A DNA stretch of 64,000 bases, taken from contig JAUJOD010000001.1 of assembly GCA_030447865.1 (NCBI GenBank), positions 248,001-312,000 of the forward strand. The letters are read 5' to 3'. The notes under the pieces were generated by a model. That model was not told the DNA's origin. It saw nothing but the letters and a program-made list of their open reading frames with translations, and searched no databases. The translations under genes were made by a program, and so were the position numbers. The stretch comes from Nocardioidaceae bacterium (GTDB lineage Bacteria; Actinomycetota; Actinomycetes; Propionibacteriales; Nocardioidaceae). This document shows, piece by piece, positions 5,758 through 10,494 of this stretch (position 1 is the first letter of the stretch; each line of letters opens with the position of its first letter).

Positions 5758-6066
5758 TCAGAGCTTGATCTCGATGTCGACACCGGCAGGAAGCTCGAGC
5801 CGCATCAGCGAGTCGACGGTCTTCGGCGTCGGGTCGAGAATGTCGATGAGCCGCTTGTGGGTGCGCATCTCGAAGTGCTCGCGGCTGTCCTTGTACTTGT
5901 GCGGCGACCGGATCACGCAGAAGACGTTCTTCTCCGTGGGAAGCGGCACCGGGCCAGCGACCTTCGCGCCAGTACGCATCACCGTGTCGACGATCTTGCG
6001 CGCCGACGAGTCGATGACCTCATGGTCATAGGCCTTGAGCCGGATCCGGATCTTCTGTCCCGCCAT
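5758..6066 (-). CDS. rpsJ: 30S ribosomal protein S10 (NusE)
   Basis: S10 is a small-subunit head protein and, as NusE, part of the Nus antitermination complex. The ATG at 6064-6066 gives [19 protein letters not shown] and 102 residues, the canonical length. The [39 protein letters not shown] core is complete. A longer reading frame upstream is leader sequence and not part of the protein. It is the first gene of the S10 operon, about 310 bp from the IS element end. Confidence 0.97.
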
Positions 6067-6139
6067 GCTCTCGCTTCGTCCTTCGCACTCGTTCCGCTGA
6101 TGGTTGTGCCGTCGGCCGCCCAGTGCCGTGGACCCGCGT

Positions 6140-6164
6140 CCGACCCCCGAGGTCGGGCGTGTCG
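6140..6164 (-). promoter_or_regulatory. Shared ribosomal-operon leader element, copy 1 (rpsJ leader)
   Basis: A 25-bp sequence in the 5' leader of rpsJ recurs without mismatch at 13637-13661 in the leader of rpsL. On the transcribed strand it reads CGACACGCCCGACCTCGGGG followed by GTCGG and can fold as a hairpin (CCGACC paired with GGTCGG). It is located about 75 bp upstream of the rpsJ start codon and downstream of the predicted promoter, so it is transcribed. A function as leader RNA element or protein site is inferred. Confidence 0.6.
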
Positions 6165-6339
6165 GTCGCTGGGCGCACGACGTGCCGATCACAAGGAAAC
6201 GGTTGGCTGGGCTGGGCAGTGACTCGACCGCCGGTCAGCGGCGAGTCATGGTGGAGTCTCCGTTTCGGCAGACCGACCAACTCAGACCTGCGAGTGGCTG
6301 TCCGGTCCGCCCCGGCGACGCCGCCTGGGCAACCCCGAT

Positions 6340-6369
6340 AGTTTGCCAGACGAGGCAGGTGGCTGCCAA
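6340..6369 (-). promoter_or_regulatory. Predicted rpsJ (S10 operon) promoter
   Basis: On the minus strand TTGGCA (6364-6369) is followed by an 18-bp spacer and CAAACT (6340-6345). This fits an actinobacterial housekeeping promoter with a strong -35 and moderate -10. The leader would be about 270 nt. The IS-element terminus at 6385 is only 15 bp upstream of the -35 box, so the promoter core survived insertion. Confidence 0.55.
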
Positions 6370-6376
6370 ATCGCCG

Positions 6377-6384
6377 CGTTGACC
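6377..6384. repeat. Target-site duplication, left copy (CGTTGACC)
   Basis: The 8-bp sequence CGTTGACC directly abuts the left terminal inverted repeat and is repeated exactly at 9154-9161 next to the right terminus. This is the footprint of transposition with an 8-bp staggered cut. Confidence 0.93.
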
Positions 6385-6404
6385 GGTAGTGGGTCAGTTT
6401 GAAT
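6385..6404. repeat. Left terminal inverted repeat
   Basis: GGTAGTGGGTCAGTTTGAAT pairs base for base with the right end. Read on the minus strand it also supplies the last sense codon and stop of the transposase gene (...S N stop). Confidence 0.93.
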
Positions 6405-7269
6405 CGGGAAGCTTGTAGTCGAGCAGGTTCACGATGTCTGTCAGCGTCCAGACCCGGTTCGCCTTGCCTGCCGCCATCGCGGGGGTGGTCTTACGGCCAC
6501 CGTTGGCCTTCGTGAGCGTTTGGTGTGGCCGAGCGAAGTTGTAGTAGACGAAGTGCAGCGACACGGCTGCGGTCAGGTTCTCGACCTTCTTGGAGAAGCC
6601 GTTGGTCAGCCGGGTGAAGCGGCGCATGCTCATCCGCATGGTGAGGTTCTGCCGCTCCACGTAGGACGTTGAGATGTGGGCCGGGTCAGGGTCGCCCTGC
6701 ACGATCCGAACATCGGTGCCGGTGCAGACGGCGGGGCTGTAGCGGCGCTCGTTGCCCTGTCCCTCGGGAGCGTCGTAGAGCTTGATCAGCATGGCGTAGT
6801 CCACGTCCGCGCCGAGCCGGTTCTCGACGGCGTTGAGGTAGGCATGGTGGCCGTCTGTGGTGAGTTGCATGCGGCGGTTCACGCGGAACGCCAGATCGTC
6901 AATTAGTGCCCTTGCGGAGTACGAAGAACGGTCACCGACGTACCAAGACGGCACAAGCTTGGTGTCAGCGTCGATCGCAGTCCACGTCCACACGTCGCCG
7001 TAGCCGAACTCACCTTCATGCTCAGCGGGGACGTTCTTGCGCTTGGCGTAGCAGAAGGACCAGATTTCGTCGCACTGGACGCGCTCGCAGTCCAGGTCGA
7101 GCAGTAACTCGTTGGCGGCGTAGGAGCAGGCGTCTCCTAGGTCGACCAGGAGTTTGGTGATCGTGTTCTTCGCTGCGCCGGTCGTGCGGACCGTGGCACG
7201 GATGCTCATTCCCTCGACCAGACACCCGACGATCTGCGCCCGCTTCTCCGTGCTCAACTTGTTCACCAT
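6394..7269 (-). CDS. IS1-family-like DDE transposase
   Basis: This gene catalyses strand transfer of the element. With the ATG at 7267-7269 it has 291 residues, beginning MVNKLSTEKRAQIVGCLVEG. An N-terminal helix-turn-helix (about residues 18-45, VRTTGAAKNTITKLL) precedes a DDE core with D67 (CDEIW), D139 (TTDG) and E205 (YVERQNL), the spacing and contexts seen in IS1-like enzymes. Upstream in-frame TTG/ATG codons coincide with promoter boxes, so this start is preferred; transcription would begin at or next to the ATG. The stop codon lies inside the left inverted repeat. The gene points toward rpsJ with no terminator between. The exact IS1 subgroup cannot be fixed by eye. Confidence 0.9.
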   Translation of the reverse strand: MVNKLSTEKRAQIVGCLVEGMSIRATVRTTGAAKNTITKLLVDLGDACSYAANELLLDLDCERVQCDEIWSFCYAKRKNVPAEHEGEFGYGDVWTWTAIDADTKLVPSWYVGDRSSYSARALIDDLAFRVNRRMQLTTDGHHAYLNAVENRLGADVDYAMLIKLYDAPEGQGNERRYSPAVCTGTDVRIVQGDPDPAHISTSYVERQNLTMRMSMRRFTRLTNGFSKKVENLTAAVSLHFVYYNFARPHQTLTKANGGRKTTPAMAAGKANRVWTLTDIVNLLDYKLPDSN

Positions 7270-7276
7270 ACTGACC

Positions 7277-7305
7277 ATTATGCTTGAGCGGTCAGGCAGT
7301 GTCAA
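7277..7305 (-). promoter_or_regulatory. Transposase promoter (near-consensus)
   Basis: On the minus strand TTGACA (7300-7305), a 17-bp spacer and CATAAT (7277-7282) form a near-perfect sigma-70-type promoter. The ATG follows after 7 bp, so the expected first transcribed base is the A of the start codon (leaderless mRNA). The spacer contains the repeat at 7286-7298. Confidence 0.75.
7286..7298. repeat. Internal repeat of the IS element, copy 1
   Basis: GAGCGGTCAGGCA occurs here, inside the transposase promoter spacer, and again at 8806-8818 across the start of the KGG-protein gene, in the same orientation. Extended five bases leftward the match is 17 of 18 (TGCTT versus TGCGT). It could be a binding site for an element-encoded protein; this is inference. 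Confidence 0.6.
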
Positions 7306-7381
7306 CGATGTGAGACCGTTGTTACAGCGTCGTTACTTTAATTAAGAGTTAGCGCCCAACTAGTCAGAGTACGATGACGTC

Positions 7382-8611
7382 ATGGCCAGCCCTATGTCTA
7401 AGACCGAACGAGTCAACCAGCTGCGCACGGTGTTCACTCCCCGCACACCCGTGCAGAACAAGGATCTGCTAGCGGGACGTCTAGATGAGGTCATCCGGAT
7501 CCTGACGGCACTTACCGAGCCGGGACTACATGTTGCCATCTATGGGGAGCGGGGTGTCGGCAAGTCTTCCCTGGCGAACGTTTTATCGCAGTTTGAAAAC
7601 TTCTCCAGCCCCGGTGTACCGATCCGGATTAACTGCACAACGTCTGACACGTTTAAGAACATCTGGGTCAAAGTGCTACGCAAAGGCATGCATCCTATTC
7701 CGGATGACTGGGCGTTCGGTAGCCCCGACCCAGATGAGATTCGGAGCATTCTAGAGGACGCGGCCTGGCCCTTCATTATCCTCGACGAGTTCGATCGGTG
7801 GGAGGATGACCCGGACGGGCTTAGTCTGATGGCCGACACAGTAAAAGCTCTCTCCGACCACGACGTCCGCACCAAACTGGTCATTGTGGGAGTTGCCGAC
7901 TCCATCGATCAACTTATCGGAGAACATGAATCTGTCCGGCGTGCGATCGAAGAGGTGCCCCTGCTTCGCATGTCACGTAGCGAGCTCCTTCGTATCCCCG
8001 TTGATGGCTTACGCCGAATCGGTATGGGGATAGACGAACGAGCGGCCTCGGCGATCGCCACCCTGTCGGAAGGCTTGCCGCACTTTGCCCATCTGTTGTC
8101 GCAACATGCCGCCATCCGGTGCGTACAGGATGACCGATCCCACGTCACCTTGGCCGACGTCTTGGACGCAATCCAAGCCGCTTTAGATCGCCACTCAGTC
8201 TTGAAGGCATACGAAACTGCCAAGGCTGCCCAGCGAAGGGACACCCTTTACGCCCGAGTACTGTTGGCGTGTGCGCTGGCCGAGAAGGACCGTCTGGGGT
8301 TCTTTGCTGCAGCCGATATTCGAGAACCCATGTTCCATATCATGGGAAGGCCCTACGCAATCCCGGCCTACGCTCCGCACTTGAAAGCCTTCACCGAGGT
8401 CGAACGAGGGCCAGTATTGAAACGTGAGGGTCCCGAACGTCGCTACCGGTATCGATTCGCGGACCCGTTGCTCCAACCTTTCGTTGTGCTAACAGCTCTC
8501 TCGGAGGGTTGGCTTCCGGAACACTACAAATCCTCGCTGTTCGCACAGGTTGGAGGCGACATACCTCAGGCTAAGGCTTCGCCGCCCAACGAGCCTGAGC
8601 AGCTCTTCTAG
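7382..8611 (+). CDS. Orc1/Cdc6-like AAA+ ATPase, passenger of the IS element
   Basis: The protein has 409 residues. The P-loop ATPase core shows Walker A GERGVGKSS (55-63), Walker B FIILDEFD (131-138), a sensor-1-like strand KLVIVGVADS (165-174) and a sensor-2-like helix SEGLPHFAHLL (229-239). Residues about 285-375 look like a winged-helix domain ending RRYRYRFADPLLQPFVVL. This architecture resembles Orc1/Cdc6 initiators and AAA_16 proteins. Its role here is unknown; target selection for the transposase (as TnsC, MuB, IstB and TniB do elsewhere) or a defence or regulatory role are possibilities. TACGAT at 7370-7375 lies 6 bp before the ATG and no ribosome-binding site is seen, so a leaderless transcript is likely. 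Codon use is less GC-biased than in flanking genes, which suggests horizontal transfer. Confidence 0.85.
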   Translation: MASPMSKTERVNQLRTVFTPRTPVQNKDLLAGRLDEVIRILTALTEPGLHVAIYGERGVGKSSLANVLSQFENFSSPGVPIRINCTTSDTFKNIWVKVLRKGMHPIPDDWAFGSPDPDEIRSILEDAAWPFIILDEFDRWEDDPDGLSLMADTVKALSDHDVRTKLVIVGVADSIDQLIGEHESVRRAIEEVPLLRMSRSELLRIPVDGLRRIGMGIDERAASAIATLSEGLPHFAHLLSQHAAIRCVQDDRSHVTLADVLDAIQAALDRHSVLKAYETAKAAQRRDTLYARVLLACALAEKDRLGFFAAADIREPMFHIMGRPYAIPAYAPHLKAFTEVERGPVLKREGPERRYRYRFADPLLQPFVVLTALSEGWLPEHYKSSLFAQVGGDIPQAKASPPNEPEQLF

Positions 8612-8819
8612 CGATCTCGGCTCGCTGTTCGGGCGTGAGTTTCGCCGCGCGCGCCTTGCCACCCTTCAGCCCGCCACGTCGCCCCAGCGAAACGGCGGCT
8701 GGGTCTTTGCCGTCGTCCGGAGCCGGAGCTTGAGGCTTGTCCTTGTCGGTGGTGTCAGCGACGATGGAAGCGGCAAGTTCGTTTATGTCGCGTGGGCGCT
8801 TGCGTGAGCGGTCAGGCAT
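8571..8819 (-). CDS. Small basic KGG-repeat protein, passenger of the IS element
   Basis: The protein has 82 residues. The N-terminus is charged (MPDRSRKRPRDINELA) and the C-terminal third reads SLGRRGGLKGGKARAAKLTPEQRAEIARRAAQARW, a glycine/lysine/alanine module found in many small actinobacterial proteins and likened to histone-H1 tails or nucleic-acid binding. The function is not known. It is convergent with the ATPase gene and overlaps its 3' end by 41 bp. The ATG at 8817-8819 follows TATCCT (minus strand, 8826-8831) by 6 bp, again allowing a leaderless transcript. The 13-bp internal repeat covers its start codon. Confidence 0.7.
   Translation of the reverse strand: MPDRSRKRPRDINELAASIVADTTDKDKPQAPAPDDGKDPAAVSLGRRGGLKGGKARAAKLTPEQRAEIARRAAQARWAAKP
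8806..8818. repeat. Internal repeat of the IS element, copy 2
   Basis: GAGCGGTCAGGCA, identical to 7286-7298, spans the first codons of the KGG-protein gene. In both places the minus strand reads TGCCTGACCGCTC. Confidence 0.6.
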
Positions 8820-8838
8820 ACGTTGAGGATACCTTACG

Positions 8839-9144
8839 ATGACTAGTGACAGTCGGCTCCCATACGTCTGGCTGATCGTCCACGTGGCGGCAATCGCAGC
8901 AGCCACGACCTTTCTCGCCGTAGTAATACATGAGCCGGTGGTTGACGCCAACATAGGTGCGGGTTTCGCGATGCTGGCCCTCGCCGCGCTGGGGATGCCG
9001 TGGTCGCTGCTGGTCTTTAGTGGCGTCATACCTGAGGGGCGCGACTTCGCGGAAACATCGCTGTTCATCGCGTTCGCACTGGCCAACGTGCTGATCCACG
9101 GGCTCCTTGCGCTTTGGCTAACCAAGCGACGTCATTCAAACTGA
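8839..9144 (+). CDS. Small three-helix membrane protein, passenger of the IS element
   Basis: The protein has 101 residues with three predicted transmembrane segments at about 9-30, 38-60 and 72-95, and a basic tail TKRRHSN. No family was recognised. GAGG at 8825-8828 is a possible ribosome-binding site ten bases from the ATG. Its last two codons and TGA stop lie inside the right terminal inverted repeat, mirroring the transposase at the other end. It diverges from the KGG-protein gene with only 19 bp between starts, so the two may share regulation. It may anchor or act with the ATPase, but that is speculation. Confidence 0.65.
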   Translation: MTSDSRLPYVWLIVHVAAIAAATTFLAVVIHEPVVDANIGAGFAMLALAALGMPWSLLVFSGVIPEGRDFAETSLFIAFALANVLIHGLLALWLTKRRHSN

Positions 9145-9153
9145 CCCACTACC
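9134..9153. repeat. Right terminal inverted repeat
   Basis: This is the exact reverse complement of the left 20-bp terminus. It contains the stop codon of the small membrane-protein gene. Confidence 0.93.
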
Positions 9154-9161
9154 CGTTGACC
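9154..9161. repeat. Target-site duplication, right copy (CGTTGACC)
   Basis: This copy is identical to 6377-6384 and directly abuts the right inverted repeat. Confidence 0.93.
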
Positions 9162-9225
9162 CATACGGCGTGAGACCTCACGCTGCCTCCCCCTGTCAAG
9201 GCGGGTCGGCACCCACCATCGCCCG

Positions 9226-9287
9226 CCCTCGACTTGTCAGGCTCCGCCAGGCGGAAGAGTGTCCTCTACAGCCTGACAAGTCGAGGG
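9226..9287 (-). terminator. Terminator after tuf
   Basis: An 18-bp perfect stem (CCCTCGACTTGTCAGGCT at 9226-9243 with its complement at 9270-9287) encloses a 26-nt loop that holds a second small GC hairpin. It starts 13 bp beyond the tuf stop. There is no U-tract, as is common in high-GC actinobacteria. It ends the rpsL-rpsG-fusA-tuf operon. Confidence 0.8.
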
Positions 9288-9300
9288 GAGGGGCGTCAGG

Positions 9301-10494
<1,194 letters not shown>

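Follow-up and report, generated by a model that had tools for sequence, protein, structure and literature searches.

An IS1-related element of a Nocardioidaceae bacterium points to a lineage of compact transposons with a recurrent KGG partner gene and variable cargo

The subject of this work is a 2,769-bp mobile element in the genome of a Nocardioidaceae bacterium (assembly GCA_030447865.1, contig JAUJOD010000001.1, positions 248,001 to 312,000). This stretch of 64,000 nucleotides was analyzed as a whole and is called the window; positions given without a locus or contig name refer to it. The borders of the element, 6385–9153, were recomputed and can be read directly from the sequence. A terminal inverted repeat at the transposase end (6385–6404, plus strand, GGTAGTGGGTCAGTTTGAAT) returns at the opposite end as its exact reverse complement (9134–9153, minus strand, 20 of 20 positions), and the 8-bp target duplication CGTTGACC flanks both ends (left copy 6377–6384, right copy 9154–9161). 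The insertion site lies between tuf (9301–10494, minus strand) and rpsJ (the upstream part of 5758–6192, minus strand).

Four genes lie within these ends. The minus strand codes for an IS1-related DDE transposase (6394–7269, 291 residues) and for a small protein of 82 residues (8571–8819) that we call the KGG protein and describe below as the conserved partner of the transposase. On the plus strand we find an AAA+ ATPase of the Orc1/Cdc6 type with a C-terminal winged helix (7382–8611, 409 residues), and a small membrane protein (8839–9144, 101 residues) with its stop codon inside the right end repeat. Both are regarded as cargo, and the membrane protein is probably host-derived. Read in the direction of the transposase, the right end (9153) is followed by the membrane gene (against), the KGG gene (with), the ATPase gene (against), the transposase gene (with) and the left end (6385). 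The ATPase and KGG genes are convergent and overlap by 41 bp. An earlier note made from the sequence alone had listed the perfect 20-bp ends, the 8-bp duplication, an IS1-type transposase with D67, D139 and E205 as catalytic residues, and three inner genes; every one of these features was recovered on re-reading.

The catalytic positions are obtained with ATG 7269 as the start codon. When the transposases of the window and of 108 resolved relatives (defined below) were aligned, the catalytic D, D and E were kept in 108, 109 and 108 of the 109 sequences (alignment numbering 69/141/207). The protein matches the Pfam family DDE_Tnp_IS1 (PF03400) above the gathering cut-off (25.9 versus 24.1 bits); with three further genes inside the ends, the description in the earlier note of an IS1-related element with extra genes therefore holds. 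The NCBI equivalog for IS1, NF033558, scores 56.7 bits against a cut-off of 100. Canonical IS1 has two overlapping frames joined by a frameshift and generates target duplications of 8–10 bp. The transposase described here is encoded in one continuous 291-codon frame with no frameshift pair. Because of this single frame and the missed NF033558 cut-off we call the element IS1-related, not IS1. NCBI annotation calls relatives on three plasmids "IS1 family transposase".

To what extent this element recurs was judged from the best 80 of at least 580 transposase relatives on genome contigs, the best 80 of 121 on viral contigs, and four plasmid loci from 18 records. A locus was counted as a resolved element when an end like GGTAGTGGGTCAGTTTGAA stood on both sides and the flanking duplication was exact over at least 8 bp, cargo being allowed on either side of the transposase. 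This wider search replaced a first, seed-based one that missed many right ends, since cargo can follow the transposase. Resolved elements were found at 58 of the 80 genome loci, 47 of the 80 viral-contig loci and 3 of the 4 plasmid loci, or 108 of 164 without counting the window; three of the 108 duplicate others, leaving 105 distinct elements. Many unresolved relatives end at contig ends, and some have good ends without a duplication; locus L027 has good ends and neither a duplication nor a KGG gene. Since matching ends with an exact duplication occur at 108 of 164 other loci, we can eliminate chance as the origin of the ends in the window. The 53 of 58 resolved genome loci with a named phylum span 12 phyla, and most are metagenome assemblies. 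Isolate plasmids of Mesorhizobium loti, Hoeflea sp. and Acidiphilium multivorum also carry the element.

The likeness to canonical IS1 comprises the DDE_Tnp_IS1-matched transposase, ends that begin with GGT, the short target duplication, and a small first gene near one end, in a position that recalls insA. In contrast to canonical IS1, the present lineage has a single transposase frame and measures, with cargo, 1.3–6.7 kb (median 3.07 kb for the 108 resolved elements). The small first gene codes for the KGG protein, for which no relation to InsA was detected, although the two were not compared directly. The ISMhu11-type IS1 elements in ISfinder have a single open reading frame and lengths up to about 4.6 kb, and passengers in this single-frame branch may already be catalogued there. 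For the ISMhu11-type group, the literature searched, a coverage that leaves out ISfinder and many papers, showed neither a KGG gene nor a shared operator nor defence cargo.

Two side observations concern insertion sites. The flanks of the 108 elements show a weak palindromic target preference, with A at −17 (0.41) and −16 (0.48) and T at +7 (0.48) and +8 (0.44), counted relative to the duplication. Locus L263 (genome G198, contig C50, 5538–8713) holds a related element whose transposase is 79% identical to that of the window. This element is flanked by rpoC-like and rpsL-like frames and thus shares the ribosomal gene neighbourhood of the element in the window; it has two end repeats and no matching duplication.

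The KGG gene is the most regular companion of this transposase. A KGG profile places it upstream of the transposase gene and in the same orientation at 64 of 80 genome, 66 of 80 viral-contig and all 4 plasmid loci. Within resolved elements the same arrangement is found in 54 of 58, 39 of 47 and 3 of 3 cases, which amounts to 96 of 108. The earlier note had counted the KGG gene as cargo; this frequency makes it a recurring partner instead. In 42 of the 96 elements its ATG lies 64–68 bp from the outer end. The 61 KGG proteins that we aligned share the helix pattern DxNxLAxxIVxxAT and a part that reads GRxGGxKGGxARAxxLxxxxRxEIAxKAAxxRW, and the predicted model is helical, with a predicted local-distance difference test score (pLDDT) of 80.5 and a predicted template-modelling score (pTM) of 0.37. 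Database annotation labels this protein "histone H1" or hypothetical. When the KGG profile alone was searched against 394 genomes of the class, 7 genomes matched; in 5 of the 7, that of the window included, an end repeat lies within a locus of about 3.2 kb, and the other two (L264 and L266) showed no end repeat. A tblastn search found no KGG gene in plasmids even though the profile matches all four plasmid loci, a failure probably due to the low-complexity filter.

Variants of the protein were also observed. In the Mycobacterium interjectum element, the KGG protein (L012:4679-5062) contains an insert that by eye looks HicB-like; the whole protein has no NCBIfam match. Two P63C cargo proteins (L014:4826-5869 and L058:4787-5971) carry near their start a stretch that matches the C-terminal part of KGG, as if the same motif served in both kinds of protein. 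A literature lead on "KGG" (PMC3606827) proved, in the portion of that paper concerned, to be a Walker motif.

The remaining content of the elements is highly varied. In 108 elements we counted 276 cargo frames in 191 clusters, with the proviso that genes were called by a simple script and that some of the 276 will be wrong; in 105 of the 108 elements the script called one or more cargo frames of at least 95 residues. Five clusters cover 48 of the 108 elements: RosmerTA antitoxin-like (14), PD-lambda-2_B-like (11), P63C (10), ClpP-like (8) and proteasome-like (5), named by PADLOC and Pfam matches of scanned genome-set members or representatives rather than of every member. Nine of the 11 PD-lambda-2_B-like elements share one second gene. 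Rarer cargo includes Fic (SoFic model, E 5e-47), SIR2-like proteins, a type IIG restriction enzyme (E 1e-266), a methylase with an Mrr part, a HEC-04-like ATPase and PD-lambda-5_A. The RosmerTA antitoxin-like cluster matches PADLOC RmrA models, both in its representative and in the scanned genome-set members. Like RosmerTA (RmrA/RmrT) in the part of its description consulted (PMC10440598), this commonest cargo combines a helix-turn-helix with an ImmA/IrrE-type protease domain. A family search with one representative partner gave no partner toxin for it. An element of the same class of bacteria (L262) illustrates the exchange: its ends are accompanied by the duplication GGACTGAC, its KGG protein is 86% identical to that of the window, and the cargo adjoining its transposase is a gene like the RosmerTA antitoxin, best matched (36%) by its counterpart in L028, together with another small gene.

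At a threshold of 1e-5, PADLOC returned 242 families for 126 cargo frames, the top ones in 7–8 members. In the control with flanking genes, 126 of 277 flank frames gave 55 families, and each of the 25 families listed occurred in one member. Defence-like genes thus did not accumulate among the flank frames as they did among the cargo. Flank frames are longer (median 244 versus 184 residues) and mostly housekeeping, and PADLOC includes generic helix-turn-helix and methylase models.

Do KGG protein and cargo share the history of the transposase? Mantel tests gave r = 0.42 for transposase and KGG distances (0 of 2000 permutations reached this value, n = 95). The corresponding values for cargo were −0.02 for RosmerTA antitoxin-like (n = 14), 0.05 for P63C (n = 9) and −0.32 for ClpP-like proteins (n = 8); in those three sets of elements KGG and transposase still gave r = 0.75, 0.63 and 0.67, respectively. 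These numbers bear on the idea that KGG is merely the commonest passenger, hitch-hiking through its position near the end. Its absence from some elements and the lack of an assigned function would suit a passenger. However, KGG distances track those of the transposase over 95 elements, unlike the distances of three of the four cargo families; the KGG gene is also often found at a fixed place, and a candidate operator is common to it and the transposase gene. We therefore regard hitch-hiking as very improbable.

This candidate operator came to light as an 18-bp repeat common to the 5′ ends of the transposase and KGG genes in the window, where it forms the palindrome TGCnTGAnCGnTCAnGCA. One copy (7281–7298) lies within the spacer of the transposase promoter, the other (8801–8818) overlaps the start of the KGG gene; both are free of mismatches, and they are the only sites with up to two mismatches in the 64 kb. 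At the same tolerance the palindrome occurs 105 times in the 108 elements (336,622 bp) versus 3 times in 560,634 bp of flanks. By place, 49 of these matches fall on KGG 5′ ends, a count that is partly circular, as the palindrome was first noticed in the window repeat and in left ends of the same set; 46 fall on transposase 5′ ends (42 elements), a count that is not circular, the window excepted; and 10 fall elsewhere. For 300 random palindromes of similar make-up the mean number of elements with a site at the transposase was 0.15 and the maximum 8. Sites at the transposase occur in 42 of 99 elements with KGG versus 0 of 9 without (Fisher p = 0.012), and with up to three mismatches in 52 of 99 versus 0 of 9 (p = 0.003).

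The position of these sites relative to promoters is consistent with an operator. In the window, the transposase promoter (7277–7305, minus strand) consists of TTGACA (7305–7300), a 17-nt spacer and CATAAT (7282–7277), an 11 of 12 match, with the ATG 7 nt further on. It is the only promoter-like match in 6300–9320 (0.7 expected from shuffles), and the short distance to the ATG suggests that the transcript is probably leaderless. Among the relatives, 65% of 100 transposase 5′ regions contain a promoter with at most 2 of 12 mismatches, versus 1.8% of shuffles, and the ATG often follows the −10 box by 6–7 nt. The best promoter's spacer is covered by at least 14 nt in 35 of the 48 transposase-side sites found with up to three mismatches. 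On the KGG side, 56% of 41 left ends have a promoter with at most three mismatches, versus 2.6% of shuffles. Of 41 ends with the KGG gene in its usual position, 34 have a −35-like box starting at base 31 and 31 have a −10-like box that stops 6 nt short of the ATG; the palindrome lies in the promoter spacer, or over the start codon where the protein begins with MPDRS or similar. A site shared in this way is the pattern expected from a repressor common to both genes, and besides the transposase KGG is the sole constant candidate; from this we infer that KGG may be that repressor.

The transposase itself is the obvious competitor for this role. It contains an N-terminal helix-turn-helix-like stretch (HTH_23, E 0.15, under the cut-off), and GGTCAGT, a piece of the end repeat, follows the −10 box and precedes the ATG of the transposase gene in the window (7270–7276) and in several relatives, perhaps as a second, transposase-bound control site. 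The palindrome could thus be bound by this helix-turn-helix, with KGG as an architectural or assembly helper of transposition. However, the palindrome is missing at the transposase in all 9 elements without KGG, even though these have the transposase, and the terminal repeats do not include it. We consider transposase binding unlikely, though clearly worth more than the hitch-hiking scenario.

Taken together, we think it probable that these elements form a lineage of compact IS1-related transposons that combine a constant core with an exchangeable load, and in which KGG acts as regulator. The core consists of terminal repeats near GGTAGTGGGTCAGTTTGAA, the single-frame DDE transposase with its 8-bp duplication, and the small KGG protein, whose gene usually lies a short way in from the opposite end. 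The load, placed between and around the two core genes, differs from element to element and is often toxin-antitoxin-like or anti-phage-like; in the window it is the Orc1/Cdc6-like ATPase and the membrane protein. Made from the element end, KGG would bind the palindrome and repress its own gene as well as the transposase gene, and so keep transposition low whatever the load. The load in turn would pay for itself by protecting the host or the element. In IS1, InsA acts as a repressor, and this is the likeness we draw for KGG. What the sequences themselves show are the recurring ends and duplications, the linkage of KGG to the transposase, their correlated distances, the variety of cargo and the palindrome shared by two 5′ ends.

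Several observations weigh against this reading. Nine of the 108 resolved elements have no KGG match at threshold and three more only an opposite-strand match near the transposase; of the nine, L146 shows a short match under a laxer search. Judging from these elements, KGG is not indispensable. The nine may also simply be more distant, which would affect the palindrome comparison. As many as 57 of the 99 KGG-bearing elements lack the palindrome (up to two mismatches) at the transposase, among the ATPase-bearing elements L187 and L146/L201 lack it there, and 13 of the 48 transposase-side sites do not cover the promoter spacer. The partial circularity of the KGG-side count and the possible binding by the helix-turn-helix of the transposase also belong here. 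In the window, the KGG gene has no good upstream promoter (6 of 12 mismatches) because the membrane gene lies between. The protein is without a fold relative: there is no solved relative, and Foldseek gave no match for the model. PD-lambda-2-like cargo does track the transposase (r = 0.55), and KGG does so weakly in those 11 elements (r = 0.19, 262 of 2000 permutations). Finally, much of the cargo has no known family, and P63C, ClpP-like and proteasome-like proteins are not known defence genes.

A bolder version would see in these elements minimal "defence transposons" from the IS1 line that cross phyla: a chassis of transposase and KGG repressor with one shared operator, and a swappable slot for toxin-antitoxin or anti-phage genes. 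KGG would then represent a new class of repressors for transposons, and slot genes of no known family, the Orc-like ATPase included, would be candidates for new defence systems. We offer this version tentatively, as one that falls somewhat short of probable.

What, then, is the role of the ATPase in the window? The predicted model (pLDDT 91.5) has the fold of an initiator-type AAA+ protein with a winged helix, which agrees with the assignment in the earlier note. Its closest folds (Z 19.8–20.7) are Orc1/Cdc6 and two archaeal ATPases, the best (20.7) being an archaeal Walker ATPase. Compared with Orc1/Cdc6 chains, 2qby_A gives Z 20.3, a root-mean-square deviation (rmsd) of 8.1 and 328 aligned residues, and 2v1u_A gives Z 20.1. 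Since the sequence misses the Orc1/Cdc6 cut-off of TIGR02928 (23 versus 181 bits), we call it Orc-like rather than a member of that family.

TnsC, MuB, IstB and TniB are AAA+ partners of their transposases, and the ATPase might analogously serve its transposase in target choice or regulation, if not across the lineage then in a sub-branch of it. The fold list does include TnsC (7ufi: Z 16.5, rmsd 3.8, 268 aligned) and MuB (8xvb: Z 15.4, rmsd 3.3, 234 aligned), but Orc1/Cdc6 and the archaeal ATPases rank ahead of TnsC. The ATPase gene adjoins the transposase gene divergently in all five loci that show both: the window, L065 (ends, no duplication), L083, L146/L201 (same contig) and L187/L188 (one element seen twice, with ends GGTACTGGTAAAGTTTGAA and duplication AAGTCAAC). 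Three of these, the window, L146/L201 and L187/L188, have ends and exact duplications. This orientation is weak support because among the 108 elements the adjoining cargo gene, of whatever kind, points away from the transposase gene in 54 and the same way in 47. Moreover, the ATPase is not a constant companion as in the TnsC, MuB, IstB and TniB systems: tblastn found it in 2 of the first 80 transposase relatives (L065, complete, and L083, ended by the contig), and a few more came from the ATPase side, while 58 of the 80 resolve as transposed elements. Nearly all other members of the lineage thus transpose without it, and the weak target preference spans 108 elements, in one of which the ATPase was noted. 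The acquired targeting partner proposed in the earlier note is accordingly most improbable.

The distribution of ATPase relatives points the same way. A single-sequence search of viral contigs confirmed no close relative, and a search with a four-row alignment gave 69. Of these, 65 have neither a transposase of the window type nor KGG plus an end repeat within the stretch examined (two show a weak KGG-like match without an end repeat), and 4 adjoin such a transposase or a KGG gene with an end repeat. Locus L242, with KGG and an end repeat at a contig end, is probably another ATPase-bearing element. Neither of two plasmid relatives inspected has such a transposase or KGG with an end repeat. In the class, the ATPase was found in its own genome alone at E 1e-15 among 394 genomes; at E 1e-3, weak matches appeared in 7 other genomes of 147. 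Outside these elements, a comparison of 27 loci showed no neighbouring gene common to more than 3 of them. Because it is present in few elements of the lineage and otherwise found alone, the ATPase is, on this distribution, a passenger that boarded the lineage more than once or spread within it. The window ATPase matches no PADLOC model at 1e-5. Its relative in L065 weakly matches mad8 of MADS (E 7e-9, 33.6 bits), which hints at defence and no more than that. Most likely the window ATPase is cargo of a defensive or other accessory type; with regard to the cargo of the relatives, a role in phage interaction, the alternative in the earlier note, seems to fit better than targeting.

None of the other elements examined was found to contain the membrane gene. 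Its best relative, 51% identical, lies in the same genome (contig C3:432337-432627, L271) with no end repeats nearby, which suggests that the element took it from the host line. No relative was found in plasmids, and Pfam and NCBIfam matches are weak and under cut-off. The earlier note had asked whether the same ends and genes recur at unrelated loci, and had named a lack of recurrence, or equal mobility without the three inner genes, as evidence against its proposal. The same ends with several genes do recur at unrelated loci, and so does KGG; the membrane gene does not in the elements examined, and the ATPase does so at few loci. By that criterion the outcome counts against the proposal for the membrane gene, largely so for the ATPase, and not for KGG.

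Tn7-like elements use a TnsC-type AAA+ partner; the IS1-related lineage differs in its far smaller size and in having an AAA+ gene in few elements. It resembles Tn7-like elements with defence cargo, as portrayed in part of PMC8649781, in that a transposon would convey defence genes among distant hosts. Tn3-family transposons with toxin-antitoxin passengers, in the sections of PMC7157771 available, are likewise small and carry exchangeable toxin-antitoxin genes at a fixed place near their own regulatory site; in contrast to the elements described here, they have another transposase, a resolvase with a res site and, in those sections, no KGG protein. The pairing of KGG with a transposase, the shared site and IS1-related defence transposons were not described in the literature searched, a weak negative, as coverage omits most subscription papers and ISfinder. 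If our reading is correct, a much studied line of insertion sequences has a branch of small elements that regulate themselves and carry defence-like genes, spread over at least 12 phyla. Such a branch is easily missed because it is annotated as an "IS1 family" transposase with a "histone H1" or hypothetical partner. The reading would also give the conserved small KGG protein a testable function, and the exactly bordered cargo slot would allow new defence or toxin-antitoxin genes to be found by position.

Some further observations concern the locus and its genome. G+C is about 0.53–0.58 in the ATPase gene versus 0.63–0.70 around it. In 3 of 7 related genomes compared, tuf and rpsJ are spaced by about 240–600 bp without such an insert; the other 4 were uninformative, with no rpsJ match within the stretch examined. 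Downstream of tuf lies a perfect 18-bp inverted repeat (9226–9287), probably the tuf terminator, and the element sits between this repeat and rpsJ. The genome contains one full copy of the element and one decayed partial copy (L253:5911 onward, contig C8 near 117,911). No second (right) end of the decayed copy was found within a 12-kb stretch with up to six mismatches allowed. This copy has one perfect end repeat, a NUDIX-like frame, no transposase, and a broken KGG gene with a perfect palindrome still at its start.

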